Below are positions 18,771 through 54,500 of a DNA stretch of 64,000 nucleotides, in pieces. A program made the translations under genes and the position numbers. This stretch comes from Dyella terrae (GTDB taxonomy: Bacteria; Pseudomonadota; Gammaproteobacteria; Xanthomonadales; Rhodanobacteraceae): positions 372,001-436,000 of the forward strand of contig NZ_SIZZ01000003.1 in assembly GCF_004322705.1 (NCBI RefSeq), in the 5' to 3' direction. Each line of letters starts with the position of its first letter. Position 1 is the stretch's first letter. Below the pieces are notes generated by a model. It ran no database searches. It saw only the letters and a program-made list of their open reading frames with translations, and was not told the origin of the DNA.

Positions 18771-20936
18771 TCAGTACAGGTCGACCGGATCCACGTCGAG
18801 CGACCAGCGTACGCGCCTCGCCGAAGGCATCGACGCCAGCGATCGCTGCCAGGGCAACAAGGACGCGTGCAGGGCGGCGCGGCTGTCCGATTCGATCAGC
18901 AACTGGCCGCGATGGCGTCCGGCGCGCAGCGGCATCGGTGCGGGCATCGGGCCGAGCAGGGTGAGGCCGGTGTGGGCGAGCGCGGCCTGGGCTTCCTGCA
19001 GGAAGGCGTCCACGAATTCGCGCTGGTGCGAGTCGGCGCGCAACAGCACCTGGTGGTGATACGGCGGCAACTGCACGCTGCGGCGTTCGATCAGCAATTC
19101 CCTGGCGGCCGCGCCGTAGCCTTGCGCGAGGAGTTGTCGCAGGAGCGGGTGTTCGGGATGGTGTGTCTGCAGCAGCACGCGGCCTGGTTTGCTCGCGCGT
19201 CCGGCGCGACCGGCGACTTGGACCACCAACTGCGCCAGGCGCTCGCTGGCGCGAAAATCCACGCTGTGCAGTCCTTCGTCGACGCCGACGATGGCGACCA
19301 GCGTGAGGTTCGGCAGGTCGTGTCCCTTTGCCAGCATCTGCGTGCCAACGAGGATCGCCGGCGCGCCTTCGTGCAACTGGCCAAGCAGCTCTTCGAAGGC
19401 ATCGCGTCGTCGTGTCGTTTCCCGATCGATGCGCAAGACAGGGACGTCGGGGAAACGCGCAGTGAGTGCTTCTTCGAGACGTTCCGTGCCCTGGCCCTGG
19501 GGTTTGAGATCCGTCGCGCCGCAGGCCGGACAGGCTTCCGGTACACGCGCGTGCAAGTCGCAGTGATGGCAGATCAGCTGGCGGCGACCCGCATGGAGCG
19601 TCATCGGATGCTCGCAGCGCGGGCACTCCGCATGCCAGCCGCACTGATGGCACAACAGCACCGGCGCATAGCCGCGGCGATTGCGGAACACCAGCACCTG
19701 TTCGCCGCGTGCGATGGTGTCGGCGACAGCACCGAGCAACGCAGGCGAAAGGCCGTGATCAAGGCGTTGCATGCGCATGTCGACGATCTGCACCATCGGC
19801 GCACGAATCGAGCCAGGACGCGCGCGCAGATGCAGCGAGCGATAGCGGCCCGCGTCGACATTCGCCAGCGATTCGAGTGACGGCGTGGCCGACCCCAGCA
19901 AGACCGGCACGCCAAGTCGGCGCGCGCGCAACAGGGCCAGGTCGCGCGCGTGATAGCGAAAGCCTTCCTGTTGCTTGTAGGCGCTGTCGTGTTCTTCGTC
20001 GACGATGACGATGCCCGCGTGCGGCAGCGGGGTGAACACTGCCGAGCGGGTGCCCAGCACCACGCGGGCTTCGCCGTTGCGCGCGCGCAGCCATGCGCGT
20101 GCGCGCTCGCCTTCGGCAAGGTTCGAATGCAGTACTTCCACGGCAACGCCCAGGCGATCACGCAGGCGGCGCACGGTCTGGGGCGCGAGGCCGATTTCCG
20201 GCACCAGCAACAGAGCCTGTTTGCCCTGGGCGAGGACGCGCTCGATCAGCGCCAAATAGACCTCGGTCTTGCCGCTGCCCGTGACGCCGTCGAGCAGGAA
20301 CGGCTGGTAGGCGCCCAGCGACTTGCTGATTTCCTCAACCGCATGCACCTGTTCTTCGCTCAGTGCGGGCGGTTGCCCGGCGGGTGCGCGCATGGCTTCG
20401 AGCGCCACGCGTTCGATCAGGCCGGCGCTTGCCAGGCGACGCCCGGCATCGCGCCACTCGGGCAGCCGGTCGTGCAGTTCGTTGGCGCCCAACGGCCCGG
20501 CAGCCAGCGCTTCAAGCAGGCGAAGGCTGCCACCTTTGCGGCTGCGCGCATCGAGCGCGCTCTGGCCGGCAGGCGTGAGGCCCCAGGCTTCGTCGCGCGT
20601 ATCGGGCAGCGGTTTGTCTTCGCGCAGCGCAAGCGGCAGGGCGTTGGCGTAGGCCTCGCCCGGCGCGCCGAGCCAGTAGTCGGCTGCCCAGGCAAGGGTG
20701 GCCATCAGCTCGGCATCGAGCAACGGGCCATCGTCCATCACGCGCGCCACGCGCTTGAGCTTGTTGGCTCCCACGGAGGACTCGACACCCGTTTCCACCA
20801 CGATGCCCACCGCCTTGCCCCGGCCGAACGGCACCAGCACGCGACTGCCCGGTGCCGCCGAGCCCTCGGCGGGCGGCAGGTAGTCGAACAGCGTGGGCAA
20901 GGGGACGGGTAGGGCGACGCGGTAGGCGACTGTCAT
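18771..20936 (-). CDS. priA: Primosomal replication restart helicase PriA
   Basis: 721-aa 3'-to-5' superfamily 2 helicase that recognises stalled forks and reloads the replisome. N-terminal fork-binding domain (about 1-190), Walker A GVTGSGKT (217-224), DEEH box (313-316), eight zinc-ligand cysteines at 429, 432, 438, 441, 456, 459, 469 and 472, and motif V-VI region VVQVAGRAGRASKPG. Full length. Start at 20936 follows GAGGT by 5 nt; the upstream in-frame ATG at 20954 lacks an SD. The upstream region carries a palindromic pair of DnaA-box sequences (21114-21136). Confidence 0.97.
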   Translation of the reverse strand: MTVAYRVALPVPLPTLFDYLPPAEGSAAPGSRVLVPFGRGKAVGIVVETGVESSVGANKLKRVARVMDDGPLLDAELMATLAWAADYWLGAPGEAYANALPLALREDKPLPDTRDEAWGLTPAGQSALDARSRKGGSLRLLEALAAGPLGANELHDRLPEWRDAGRRLASAGLIERVALEAMRAPAGQPPALSEEQVHAVEEISKSLGAYQPFLLDGVTGSGKTEVYLALIERVLAQGKQALLLVPEIGLAPQTVRRLRDRLGVAVEVLHSNLAEGERARAWLRARNGEARVVLGTRSAVFTPLPHAGIVIVDEEHDSAYKQQEGFRYHARDLALLRARRLGVPVLLGSATPSLESLANVDAGRYRSLHLRARPGSIRAPMVQIVDMRMQRLDHGLSPALLGAVADTIARGEQVLVFRNRRGYAPVLLCHQCGWHAECPRCEHPMTLHAGRRQLICHHCDLHARVPEACPACGATDLKPQGQGTERLEEALTARFPDVPVLRIDRETTRRRDAFEELLGQLHEGAPAILVGTQMLAKGHDLPNLTLVAIVGVDEGLHSVDFRASERLAQLVVQVAGRAGRASKPGRVLLQTHHPEHPLLRQLLAQGYGAAARELLIERRSVQLPPYHHQVLLRADSHQREFVDAFLQEAQAALAHTGLTLLGPMPAPMPLRAGRHRGQLLIESDSRAALHASLLPWQRSLASMPSARRVRWSLDVDPVDLY

Positions 20937-21405
20937 GCGGACCTCATGGGTCAAGGAGTGTAGCTGCGGTCCGGTCTTCAGGCGGACGTGAAGTGGTGAC
21001 CCGCAGGCCGCATGACAGACCCGATACCCCGTCGCCCGGGCCGCTTGCCGGCGGTTGGTGAACCGGCGGCGAGAAGTGAGGGGTAAGTGGTTATCGGGAG
21101 GGGAAAATTGTGGTTATCCACAGAACCTGTGGATAAGTCTGTGGATGTACCGGGGAGGGAGGCCCTTCAGGCCCGCCATAACGGCTTTCCTGACGCGCTG
21201 TTCAAGTTTTAGCCAGCAAATATTGCAGCGATAAATCAATCACTTAGATAGCTCATGCGGCGAGTGTTCATCTTAGTGCCACATTCGGATACCAGTGCTT
21301 GACAGCTTTTTGATGCTGTGCAAAACCCACCGTACGGTGCCGTTGAAACCGCTTTGAAACAGGCTGGTTACGCGATTTCGGTGTGACGACCATCACAAAA
21401 TGGCG
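20937..21405. other. Gene-free region upstream of priA
   Basis: About 470 bp between priA and the DUF3667 gene, both on the minus strand. The half near priA is GC-rich and contains the DnaA-box palindrome (21114-21148); the part from about 21180 to 21300 is distinctly more AT-rich than the surroundings. No open frame with an SD, no RNA gene and no mobile element could be supported. Confidence 0.6.
21114..21148. promoter_or_regulatory. DnaA-box pair in inverted orientation upstream of priA
   Basis: TTATCCACA at 21114-21122 and TGTGGATAA at 21128-21136 are both perfect matches to the DnaA-box consensus, facing each other with 5 nt between; a third, two-mismatch copy TGTGGATGT is at 21140-21148. 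The first two also form a 10-bp palindrome TTATCCACAG/CTGTGGATAA with a 3-nt spacer. It lies about 180 nt upstream of the priA start, so regulation of priA by DnaA is possible but unproven. Confidence 0.55.
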
Positions 21406-27283: not shown

Positions 27284-28066
27284 ATGAACAACCGCATCGA
27301 TGCCTGGCAGCTGCAAGGCCATACCGCTCTGGTGACGGGCGCCAGCAAGGGCATTGGCTACGCGGCGGCACGTGAACTGGCCGGACTTGGCGCCGATCTG
27401 CTGCTGGTAGCGCGGGACGAGGATTACCTGGAGCAGATCCGCGTCGAGCTGAGCGACGACTTCGAAGGCATCGAAGTGCTTGCCTTCGGCGCCGACCTTG
27501 CTGATCAGGAAGACCGCCTGGCCGTGTTCGACTGGGTAGCCGACCTTGGTGCACCGCTCTCGCTGCTGGTCAACAACGCCGGCGGCAACCAGCCGGCACC
27601 GACGCTGGACTACAGCGAGGACGCGTACCGGAACATCTTCGAGCTGAACCTGTTCTCGGCGTTCGAAATGAGTCGCCTCGCGCATCCGCATCTCGTGCAA
27701 CACGCCAACGCCGCCATCGTCAACGTCGGCTCCGTCTCCGGCATCACGCACGTGCGCACTGGATCTCCTTACGGAATGACCAAGGCCGCCCTGCATCAGC
27801 TCACGCGTAACCTCGCGGCGGAGTGGGCCACCGACGGCATTCGCGTCAACGCCGTGGCCCCCTGGTACATCCGCACGCAGCGCACGGATCCGGCGCTGGC
27901 CAACGATGACTATCTCGACGAAGTGCTCGATCGCACGCCTCTGCGGCGCATTGGTGAGCCAGAAGAAGTGGCGGCCGCGATTGCGTTTCTGTGCCTGCCC
28001 GCAGCCAGCTACATCACGGGCCAGGTGCTGGCGGTGGATGGTGGCTTCCTCAACTACGGGTTCTGA
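27284..28066 (+). CDS. Short-chain dehydrogenase/reductase, tropinone-reductase-like
   Basis: 260-aa classical SDR. NAD(P)-binding TGASKGIG (18-25), NNAGGN (about 93-98), catalytic Ser in NVGSVSG and YGMTK as the Y-x3-K motif; C-terminal PEEVAAAIAFLCLPAASYITG and VDGGF are typical. The overall pattern (MNNRIDAWQLQGHTALVTGA) resembles tropinone-reductase-like SDRs of bacteria; the substrate is unknown. It is divergent from the lipoprotein/ABC pair and its 3' end borders the tandem DnaA-box repeats. Confidence 0.9.
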   Translation: MNNRIDAWQLQGHTALVTGASKGIGYAAARELAGLGADLLLVARDEDYLEQIRVELSDDFEGIEVLAFGADLADQEDRLAVFDWVADLGAPLSLLVNNAGGNQPAPTLDYSEDAYRNIFELNLFSAFEMSRLAHPHLVQHANAAIVNVGSVSGITHVRTGSPYGMTKAALHQLTRNLAAEWATDGIRVNAVAPWYIRTQRTDPALANDDYLDEVLDRTPLRRIGEPEEVAAAIAFLCLPAASYITGQVLAVDGGFLNYGF

Positions 28067-28072
28067 TCCGCT

Positions 28073-28430
28073 TTATCCACACGCGATGTGGAACACCTGT
28101 TCGCAAGCCTGTGGATAGTCGGGAAAACACCCGTGGTACCGGTGTCTTGCATCGTATTGCGCACTTTTTGACCAACGCCGCATGGCACGCGCGAGCTTAT
28201 CCACACGCGATGTGGAACAGCTGTTCGCAAGCCTGTGGATAGCTTCGAAAACTTCAGGCGTGCCGGTGGCTTGTATCTCGTTGCGCAGTTTTTGCGCACG
28301 CAGGGCGCCGACGTGGTTATCCACACCGGATGTGGAACACCTGTCCAAAAGCCTGTGGATAGTCGCGAAAACGACAAGCGTGGCGATGACTTGTATCGCC
28401 TTGCGCAAAAAGTGCGCAGCGCGTCTAACA
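28073..28430. repeat. Three tandem ~120-bp units carrying DnaA-box sequences
   Basis: Three units begin at 28073, 28197 and 28317 (periods 124 and 120). Each starts with a perfect DnaA box TTATCCACA, then GATGTGGAACA, then AAGCCTGTGGATAG exactly 37 nt after the first box (28110, 28234, 28354), followed by a GAAAAC, a CTTG.AT and a TTGCGCA segment. The units are similar but not identical, with the box segments best conserved. They fill the spacer between two convergent genes; there is no dnaA, dnaN or other origin-linked gene nearby. Confidence 0.85.
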
Positions 28431-29063
28431 GCCCGCCAGTTGCCCTTGCAGTTCTTTCTCCCGCCGCTCAAGGGGCGGGCGATCGCTCTTGAAGGCGCGG
28501 CGTAACTTCCGTGCGTTGTCGTCGAACTCGTCGCGCAGCGCGCGGCAGGTTTCTTCGTACGAGAGCGGCCGGCACTGGTCCTGCACCCAGACATAGCGGC
28601 TGGCGATCAGCCCCGGCGTGATCTTGCCGCGGTTGGCTTCCGGGGCCGAGATGCCGGCGCCGCCGCTGGGTCCATAGGCCTGCGCCAGTGGCATCTGCAC
28701 GGCACCGAGCATGCCCCAGGGTGCCATGTACGGTTCGTGGTAGCCGCTGTTGCTCAGGTACACCTTGCCGTCAGTGGCGCGGACGCAGGCGAACATCTGC
28801 GGAGGCGGCGGTGGCCGTTCGACGGGCGGCGGAGGAGCCTCCTCGACCGGCGCCACCGTGGCGGCCGGTGCCGGTGCGCGCGGCGGTGGCATCGCCGGGC
28901 CGGGCGGAGGCATGTCCATCACTTGCTGGCGCTGCGTCCCGGTGCAGGGCTTGTCCTGGTAGATGACGCTGCCGTTGGATGCCGTGCATTTGTACACGGC
29001 GTCGTCCGCCAGTGCGGCGGTGCTCAGCAACAACAGCAGGAGCGACAGGCGGGAGGGGCGCAT
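28425..29063 (-). CDS. Exported DUF4124-domain protein
   Basis: 212-aa secreted protein. Signal peptide (MRPSRLSLLLLLLSTAALA), a DUF4124 domain (AVYKCTASNGSVIYQDKPC, about 21-40), a proline-rich linker rich in PPPP runs (about 50-95), and a C-terminal part with four cysteines ending ..LQGQLAGC. DUF4124 proteins are frequent in Xanthomonadales and are envelope proteins of unknown role. The ATG at 29063 follows GGCGCTA..; the open frame extends upstream into the DegV gene but without a credible start. Its stop lies at the edge of the third tandem repeat. Confidence 0.8.
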   Translation of the reverse strand: MRPSRLSLLLLLLSTAALADDAVYKCTASNGSVIYQDKPCTGTQRQQVMDMPPPGPAMPPPRAPAPAATVAPVEEAPPPPVERPPPPPQMFACVRATDGKVYLSNSGYHEPYMAPWGMLGAVQMPLAQAYGPSGGAGISAPEANRGKITPGLIASRYVWVQDQCRPLSYEETCRALRDEFDDNARKLRRAFKSDRPPLERREKELQGQLAGC

Positions 29064-29091
29064 GGGCGGATCATAGCGCCGCCCGGGTTCG

Positions 29092-43406: not shown

Positions 43407-44672
43407 ATGCGCGCCCTAGCGTCCGCCCTTCGTTCGCCCCTGTTGCCCTTCTGGCTGGTCATCGCCTTGCTGCCGATCGGTCGCAGCTCCGAGCTGGGCA
43501 CGTTCCTGTGCTTGCTGGGCACCATCCTCTTGTTTGTCCGGCAGCCGCGGGCGCTGAGCGATCACACGGGCGCGCGGGTGCTGCTGTGGATAATGGGCGC
43601 TTACATCGTTGCCGCGCTGGTTTCTTCCATCGACTCGGTGGCTCCCGGGAAAAGCTGGTCGACCGTGGCTTCGCTGTTGCGTTATGTCCCGCTCGGTCTT
43701 TATGCGTGTTTCGCGATTCGTTGGGAGTCGCGCCTGCATGCGCTCTATTACGCCGTGGCCGCGGTGATCGCCTTGTGGGTGGTCGACGCCTGGGTGCAGG
43801 CGTTGACGGGCTGGAGTCTGGGCGGTCATGCGCAGGCTGAGCGCGTCTCCGGAATCTTTGGCGCCGAGCATCTGAAACTCGGTCCCGTGCTGGCCGTCCT
43901 CGCGCCTTTCGCACTCTGGGCCGCGCGGGAGCGTTGGGGCGTGTGGGGCCTGATCGGTGCGTTCCTTATCATGCTCGGTCCCGTGTTGCTTGCCGGGTCG
44001 CGCGCCGCGTGGATCAGCTATGCCGTTGTCGCCGTGGCGTTCGCCTGGCATGAGGCGCGTTCGCCGCGTCGGTTCCTGATCATCTGCATGGCGGGGTTGC
44101 TGGCCGCGCTCGCGGCAGGTGGCATCGCCTGGAAAACGTCCGAGCGCTTCCAGGCGCGCATGGATCGCACGCTGGTTGCCCTGAAGGGTTCCGACCAGGC
44201 GGTTGATGAAGCGCTGACCGGTCGCCTTGCGATCTGGCGCACGAGCGTGCGCATGTTCGAAGCGCATCCCGTCAACGGCGTTGGCGTGCGCGCGTATCGC
44301 TATGCGTATCCGCAGTTCGCCCCGGCCAATGATCACTTCGTCGTCTCTGACGAGGCTTGCGGCGCGGGCGAAGGTGCCTGCCACGCGCATCAGTGGGTAC
44401 TCGAAGTGCTGACCGAAACGGGTGTCCTGGGTCTGCTGCTGTGGCTGAGTGCGCTGGGCCTGGCAATCGCCACCTATGTGCGCGCAGGTGCGCAGGCGCG
44501 ACGCCATGCGTTTGTGCCCACGGTGGCGCTGCTGGCCATGCTGTTTCCCTTGAACACGCATCTGGCCTTCTATTCGTCCTGGTGGGGCTTGCTGTTCGCC
44601 TGGTTGCTGGGCCTGTGGTGTGCGGCGCTGTTCGTCTTTGCCGGCGCCCCGCGAGGGAAAGTGCATGGCTGA
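43407..44672 (+). CDS. waaL: O-antigen ligase family protein (WaaL-like)
   Basis: 421-aa integral membrane protein with 10-12 helices of the Wzy_C/WaaL family, which joins undecaprenyl-linked O-chain to lipid A-core in the periplasm. The typical large periplasmic loop contains RLAIWRTSVRMFEAHPVNGV, then GVRAYRYAYPQF and AHQWVLEVLTETGVLGLLLW. A Wzy polymerase role cannot be excluded. Start at 43407 has AAGGA 5 nt upstream. Its last 8 nt overlap the start of the next gene, so translation is coupled. Confidence 0.85.
   Translation: MRALASALRSPLLPFWLVIALLPIGRSSELGTFLCLLGTILLFVRQPRALSDHTGARVLLWIMGAYIVAALVSSIDSVAPGKSWSTVASLLRYVPLGLYACFAIRWESRLHALYYAVAAVIALWVVDAWVQALTGWSLGGHAQAERVSGIFGAEHLKLGPVLAVLAPFALWAARERWGVWGLIGAFLIMLGPVLLAGSRAAWISYAVVAVAFAWHEARSPRRFLIICMAGLLAALAAGGIAWKTSERFQARMDRTLVALKGSDQAVDEALTGRLAIWRTSVRMFEAHPVNGVGVRAYRYAYPQFAPANDHFVVSDEACGAGEGACHAHQWVLEVLTETGVLGLLLWLSALGLAIATYVRAGAQARRHAFVPTVALLAMLFPLNTHLAFYSSWWGLLFAWLLGLWCAALFVFAGAPRGKVHG

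Positions 44673-52460: not shown

Positions 52461-54500
<2,040 letters not shown>

Follow-up and report, generated by a model that had tools for sequence, protein, structure and literature searches.

A 358-bp gap between two convergent genes of Dyella terrae (28067–28424 of the window, by which we mean the whole stretch of 64,000 nucleotides analysed) is filled by three tandem units, each carrying predicted DnaA boxes in one fixed arrangement and a Fis-consensus palindrome at a set distance from them. The same box I/box II/Fis register is found in a single site about 7 kb away, upstream of priA, with box III displaced by 11 bp, that is, about one helical turn. This speaks for a common origin of the two or for a complex common to both, without proving either. 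Judging from anatomy and comparison, we consider it somewhat probable that the units are multiplied variants of the single DARS2-like site on the priA side and that they act in cis as DnaA/Fis control modules.

Anatomy of the array and its genomic setting

All three units have the architecture TTATCCACA-N5-TGTGGAACA-N14-TGTGGATAG and follow each other with periods of 124 and 120 bp (Table 1). Between the outer boxes of each unit TGTGGAACA lies at +14, and CTATCCACA on the minus strand follows box I at a constant 37 nt. Furthermore, each unit contains a palindrome matching the Fis consensus GNNYANNNNNTRNNC, the G of which (28159, 28283 and 28403) is located at exactly +86, counted from the box I start, in 3/3 units. 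The sequence-only reading had described three tandem units of about 120 bp at a convergent gene end, each with an exact box I, a second motif at a constant 37 nt from it and a third in between; all of this was confirmed, the 3' ends being those of the SDR (+) and DUF4124 (−) genes. Absent from that reading were the Fis consensus at +86 of each unit and the three-box DARS-core spacing of the second spot, at 21114. IHF sites, for which it had proposed a search between the boxes, did not turn up: the window array has no IHF consensus WATCARNNNNTTR, even with one mismatch.

Table 1. Positions in the window of the array, of the priA-side site and of the genes beside them
Feature	Position	Strand	Remark
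Tandem DnaA/Fis array (predicted sites)	28067..28424	+	three units fill convergent gap
Unit 1 box I, TTATCCACA	28073..28081	+	predicted DnaA box
Unit 1 box II, degenerate TGTTCCACA	28087..28095	-	predicted; 5 bp from box I
Unit 1 box III, CTATCCACA	28110..28118	-	predicted; 14 bp from box II
Unit 1 Fis-consensus palindrome, TGCGCACTTTTTGACCA	28158..28174	.	consensus match; core 28159-28173
Unit 2 box I, TTATCCACA	28197..28205	+	predicted DnaA box
Unit 2 box II, degenerate	28211..28219	-	predicted
Unit 2 box III, CTATCCACA	28234..28242	-	predicted
Unit 2 Fis-consensus palindrome, TGCGCAGTTTTTGCGCA	28282..28298	.	consensus match
Unit 3 box I, TTATCCACA	28317..28325	+	predicted DnaA box
Unit 3 box II, degenerate	28331..28339	-	predicted
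Unit 3 box III, CTATCCACA	28354..28362	-	predicted
Unit 3 Fis-consensus palindrome, TGCGCAAAAAGTGCGCA	28402..28418	.	consensus match
SDR-family oxidoreductase gene	27284..28066	+	context; 3' end at array
DUF4124 protein gene	28425..29066	-	context; 3' end at array
priA-side DARS-core site	21114..21148	+	predicted; box I 21114-21122 (+), box II 21128-21136 (-), box III 21140-21148 (-)
Fis consensus, GTTCAAGTTTTAGCC	21200..21214	.	consensus match; +86 of priA-side site
IHF consensus, AATCAATCACTTA	21234..21246	+	consensus match; +120 of priA-side site
priA, primosomal helicase	18771..20936	-	context; downstream of 21114 site

A second array, of four units (C1:238239-238758), is found in the same genome where accD and a PAP2 gene converge, and its units carry at +86/87 a Fis-like site that agrees with the consensus at 6 to 8 of the 8 positions. 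The genome total comes to seven units, three at the SDR locus and four at the accD locus, when counted with a looser pattern (26–33 nt between the outer boxes) whose backward control gives none. Since both arrays are placed between convergent 3' ends, which argues against promoter control there, regulation of a promoter by DnaA was rejected for the two arrays of this genome; the same argument fails for some of the dispersed copies and for the priA-side site.

Exact copies of TTATCCACA number six in the window and, as had been pointed out from the sequence, five of them fall in two intergenic spots, the array and the 21114 site. When up to one mismatch is allowed, the window contains 14 DnaA-box matches versus a mean of 3.78, and at most 8, after shuffling. 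A genome-wide count (4.22 Mb in nine contigs), also proposed in the sequence-only reading, gave 15 exact copies versus 7 for the backward control. Six of the 15 are those of the window, and a further six are found around dnaA, on contig C4, within 8 kb. The sixth copy in the window (43585-43593) is isolated and apparently lies within a gene.

Conservation of the unit among relatives

The pattern TCCACA-N5-TGKGGA-N17-TGTGGA, with which relatives were surveyed, is present in 139 of the 233 family genomes, belonging to 19 of 26 genera; for the order, the figure is 165 of 398. The backward pattern gives zero in all 233 and all 398. According to our reading of the order table, positives are confined to the own family (f1) and a sister family (f2), with none in f3–f12. 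The 94 family genomes in which the unit has no match include all sampled members of seven genera, and copy number per family genome ranges from 0 to 15. Thus, the possibility that the boxes are not conserved in relatives, which the sequence-only reading had allowed for, can be set aside on account of this distribution and of the box columns described below, whereas constancy of copy number across strains does not hold.

The units and many of the loci were found with fixed-spacing patterns, so that seeded columns and gap counts are conserved by construction; the rigidity of the spacing rests on free-spacing tests and the conservation of sequence on unseeded columns. With 24–36 nt allowed, 55 of 56 SDR-downstream units have 28 nt between the outer boxes. 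With 26–33 nt allowed, the same holds for 30 of the 31 genus matches, which come from six genomes with four to seven units each. The other five genus genomes have four to six looser-pattern matches each, mostly adjoining accD. Further such matches away from accD occur in G004 and G002, one of those in G002 having a different spacing, and the backward control of the looser pattern matches in two of the six genus genomes, at one place each (G004 and G001).

Redundancy removal reduced the box alignment from 202 rows to 150 units. Among the unseeded columns of box I, T1 is kept in 93%, T2 in 99% and T4 in 100% of these units, and in boxes II and III the A that follows TGTGG is kept in 99%. The conserved unseeded columns also include AAGC before box III, which lies outside any DnaA box. 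Upstream of the unit, almost every column has only 0–0.2 bits, meaning that this flank is unconserved. The three boxes differ in quality: the strict consensus TTWTNCACA is matched by box I in 106/150 units, by box III in 46/150 (139/150 within one mismatch) and by box II in 0/150 (33/150 within one mismatch). A DNA similarity search with the whole array matched only 1 of 60 relatives, at 67% identity, and understated the conservation because it is mainly the boxes and the Fis site that are kept.

The Fis counts are based on 167 units left from 216 rows after redundancy removal, with dinucleotide shuffles as background, and the Fis alignment was made from 166 units, of which the 119 with at least 5/6 Fis positions were kept. 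In 78/167 units the 70 nt that follow box III contain a perfect Fis consensus, versus 9.6 in the shuffles (sd 2.7, largest 20); the other 89 units lack one, and 72 of 80 Fis matches in the units fall at two adjacent offsets. Moreover, the T before and the A after the match, columns that played no part in choosing the alignment, are kept in 115/119 and 109/119 aligned units, respectively. The IHF consensus, present in 3/167 units versus 0.25 after shuffling (largest 2), is rare yet above chance.

Units adjoining accD or the SDR gene are common to several genera. Among relatives, none to six units lie within 700 bp of SDR genes, and arrays of six and seven are located about 1.0 and 1.4 kb beyond the SDR gene in G117 and G102, respectively. 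Some Dyella, Luteibacter and other genomes carry units at further intergenic sites, the neighbours of which, from the look of their translated ORFs, we take to be purB-fumC, smpB, pgk and miaA. D. amyloliquefaciens (G018) has four near-identical dispersed single units (L278, L279, L280 and L281). Two of its units, L278 and L280, correspond to units found at similar-looking gene pairs in D. jiangningensis (L282 and L283). As a separate observation, the unit closest to the DUF4124 gene often has TGGGGAAA instead of the box II TGTGGA (e.g. L030, L036 and L048).

In nine finished relatives, units at or near the SDR gene lie at 0.036–0.188 of the chromosome from dnaA. For 62 positions of other units among the relatives, the median is 0.344 (0.159–0.467). 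The single-copy DARS-core site has a median distance of 0.099 (0.034–0.24) in the 22 of 29 relatives with a place listed. For G005, the largest contig served as chromosome size. The corresponding distances in E. coli are 0.206 for DARS2, 0.329 for DARS1 and 0.101 for datA, with oriC at the position we assume for it. The distance of the SDR-locus units of relatives from dnaA, together with the location of dnaA of D. terrae on another contig (C4), led us to reject oriC as the identity of the array, in agreement with the sequence-only reading.

The priA-side site and the E. coli DARS loci

The site at 21114 reads TTATCCACA, 5 bp, TGTGGATAA, 3 bp, TGTGGATGT and is located 178 bp upstream of the priA start (taken at 20936). 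Its box orientations recur in the DARS1 and DARS2 cores of E. coli, read from MG1655, which have the 5- and 3-bp spacers as well. The available part of PMC5742627 likewise gives DARS1 and DARS2 equal spacing, with box I opposite to boxes II and III. Of the 398 order genomes, 357 contain the corresponding pattern, TTWTCCACA-N5-TGTGGAWAA-N3-TGTG, as do 166 of the 369 genomes in a class sample; the backward control is zero in both. In the order, positives are mostly single-copy; by our reading of the table, about 40 genomes have at least two, all outside f1 and f2. An aligned priA start lies 110–296 bp away in 28 of 60 DARS-core loci read, and among 40 later loci priA is near in 18/20 from the family (127–450 bp) and 5/20 from the class (82–220 bp), so that 51 of 100 loci have any priA match. 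The sites keep TTATCCACA, with A at position 3 in 88% of 60.

Across 61 DARS-core loci, a Fis consensus is often found at +86/87 and an IHF consensus at +119–122, and a few loci have one or both about 11 bp closer. Examples of the closer placement are seen in L253–L255 and L275, with Fis at +74/75 and IHF at +109 in some of these sites. Offsets were predicted beforehand (Fis +84–88 or +73–77, IHF +118–123 or +107–112), and 40 fresh loci were then taken in listed order; after near-identical loci had been dropped, 56 discovery, 20 class and 17 family loci were left. A Fis match at the predicted offsets occurs in 33/56, 6/20 and 8/17 of these, respectively, and an IHF match in 20/56, 5/20 and 2/17. 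The per-offset enrichment of Fis is 39-fold in the class and 118-fold in the family set, where 8 and 4 Fis matches fall elsewhere, and plus-strand IHF matches outside the predicted offsets number none in the test sets and 9 in the discovery set. A perfect Fis match is missing from the predicted offsets in 14/20 class and 9/17 family loci, Fis and IHF occur together in only one locus per test set, and most test loci are without a perfect match. The placement of Fis and IHF consensus sites recurs in fresh loci, more weakly than in the discovery set.

The priA-side site resembles E. coli DARS2 in its 5/3 core geometry and opposed box I and in having both Fis and IHF consensus sites. According to the part of PMC4245941 available, DARS2 needs its IHF and Fis sites, and the position of both matters. 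The order is different: our reading of that part and a sequence scan give core-IHF-Fis for DARS2, whereas the order here is core-Fis(-IHF). At +86, neither DARS1 nor DARS2 matches the Fis consensus even if one mismatch is tolerated; the perfect Fis match of DARS2 is at +145. DARS2 does have a one-mismatch IHF match at +109, which differs by 11 bp, or one turn, from the position on the priA side (+120); together with the closer sites in DARS-core loci this suggests, at the level of sequence, that sites may be shifted by whole turns. DARS1 has the same core of three boxes, with box I opposed and spacers of 5 and 3 bp. At the conserved offsets, however, it matches neither Fis nor IHF even when one mismatch is allowed, and it is a single copy between bioD and uvrB.

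The array units are like DARS2 in that three boxes are present with box I opposed to II and III, the I–II spacer is 5 bp and a Fis consensus lies at a set distance, as a sequence match at a position that differs from E. coli. They differ in that box III stands at 14 rather than 3 bp, box II is weak where DARS1 and DARS2 of E. coli have a good DnaA box, no IHF consensus is found and the copies are multiple and in tandem. We call them DARS-like rather than filing them as DARS, because the spacing of box III, the quality of box II and IHF do not fit and nucleotide exchange would be assigned by analogy only. Of the two likenesses offered by the sequence-only reading, which had spoken of a datA/DARS-like locus, the DARS-like one stands (opposed box I, 5-bp spacer and fixed Fis consensus). 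With datA, the array shares being an intergenic DnaA-box cluster located away from oriC. The essential datA boxes, however, point one way and need IHF, as far as the available part of PMC5742627 goes, whereas the array boxes are head-to-head with no IHF consensus, and datA was rejected as the identity of the array on both counts.

The clusters of DnaA boxes that serve titration or control in Bacillus and Streptomyces consist of several intergenic boxes and are not known to contain a fixed module of three boxes and a Fis site. DARS-like sequences in many proteobacteria are already in print. In a limited literature search, which included the available parts of PMC4245941, PMC4585315, PMC8682772, PMC5742627, PMC10380432 and PMC12371093, no description of tandem DARS-like arrays, of the Fis +86 register or of the priA position was found; such silence is weak evidence of novelty.

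Possible functions of the arrays

As variants of the priA-side site, the units would probably work as follows. ADP-DnaA would be held head-to-head on the facing box I (strong) and box II (weak) across 5 bp, and box III, 14 bp further on, would add a protomer in the same helical phase. Fis bound at +86/87 could bend or dock this complex during fast growth; ADP would then be released and apo-DnaA would reload with ATP, by analogy with E. coli DARS2. The dosage of the array and the time of its replication would feed back on initiation. What we observe is the anatomy of the units, their fixed spacing, their conservation and the register in common with the priA-side site; from this we infer a common origin with that site, binding of DnaA and Fis, nucleotide exchange and an effect on initiation. 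A plain DARS reading of the arrays is weakened by the poor quality of box II, the displacement of box III and the absence of an IHF consensus. Against the DARS2-like reading we also count the low share of strict matches in box III, the units and test loci without a perfect Fis match, the family genomes without a unit, the variable copy number, the dispersed near-identical copies and the lack of a Fis site at +86 in DARS1 and DARS2 of E. coli.

The main rival explanation for the arrays is passive titration, in which they would be high-capacity sinks for DnaA replicated at set times, with no nucleotide exchange and with Fis only gating access. A variable copy number would suit a dosage buffer, box I is a good DnaA box in most units, and a classical DARS core would seem to call for a stronger box II; titration of DnaA on the E. 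coli chromosome has also been argued for (PMC12371093, in the part available). A sink, however, needs neither a rigid 5/14-bp geometry nor a Fis site fixed at +86/87, and the four to seven units per genome in the genus add few boxes. We regard titration as a rather unlikely account of the arrays.

The scatter of the unit could alternatively be that of a duplicating, perhaps mobile, non-coding element in which the boxes merely resemble DnaA sites. The sequence-only reading had named an ordinary scattered repeat as the case that would speak against a DnaA locus, and part of this picture is indeed found: there are units at further intergenic places, four near-identical copies in D. amyloliquefaciens and 0 to 15 copies per genome. 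Yet the boxes and the Fis site are kept while the upstream flanks are unconserved, the spacing is rigid, and the accD and SDR array positions are common to several genera. Nor do the arms of the boxes covary, as position 3 of box I is complementary to its box III partner (pair 3-44) in 40/150 units versus 39.0 after shuffling. Of the 15 pairs tested, 10-37, outside the boxes, exceeded all 2000 shuffles, 25-31 stood at 0.05 and the rest were unremarkable; no pair in the arms of the Fis-like palindrome rose above the shuffle maximum, with pair 2-12 raised (57 versus 42.8 of 119). A hairpin or RNA element was rejected on these grounds and for want of an Rfam match at the array, and a phage or plasmid origin because the window array has no match in either collection at E 1e-5. 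An ordinary dispersed repeat seems very improbable to us. The only Rfam match of the window at the gathering threshold is a TPP riboswitch aptamer on the plus strand (52465-52559).

We give equally little credence to the idea that a factor other than DnaA reads the TCCACA repeats, whether in a binding site of different proteins or in a Fis/nucleoid-structuring boundary where gene ends converge: box I is TTTTCCACA in 88/150 and TTGTCCACA in 28/150 units, whereas DARS-core sites keep TTATCCACA, and the conserved AAGC is no part of a DnaA box, but TTTTCCACA is itself a DnaA consensus box (TTWTNCACA) and the register in common with the DARS-core site suggests the same proteins for both.

The reading of the units as multiplied DARS2-like modules can be extended, more tentatively, to a scheme that we find conceivable though still short of probable. 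There might be a broad gammaproteobacterial class of DnaA-control sites in which a three-box core is followed by a Fis site at +86 and an IHF site at +120, frequently on the upstream side of priA, and E. coli DARS2 would be a rearranged relative of this class. In the own and one sister family, it would have been copied into intergenic multi-unit sites, giving a dosage-based, several-fold amplified clock of DnaA reactivation.

To our knowledge, most of what is understood about how non-coding DnaA-reactivating sites control initiation comes from E. coli. Provided that the layout is functional, the DARS principle could be recognised from sequence, and put to the test, in many lineages, and the displacement of box III, Fis and IHF sites by one turn would yield precise predictions for the geometry of a DnaA-Fis-IHF complex. 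Likewise, the natural range of unit number, 0–15 per family genome, would then allow a direct test of how site dosage affects the timing of initiation. In D. terrae, the array may help to set the timing of chromosome replication.
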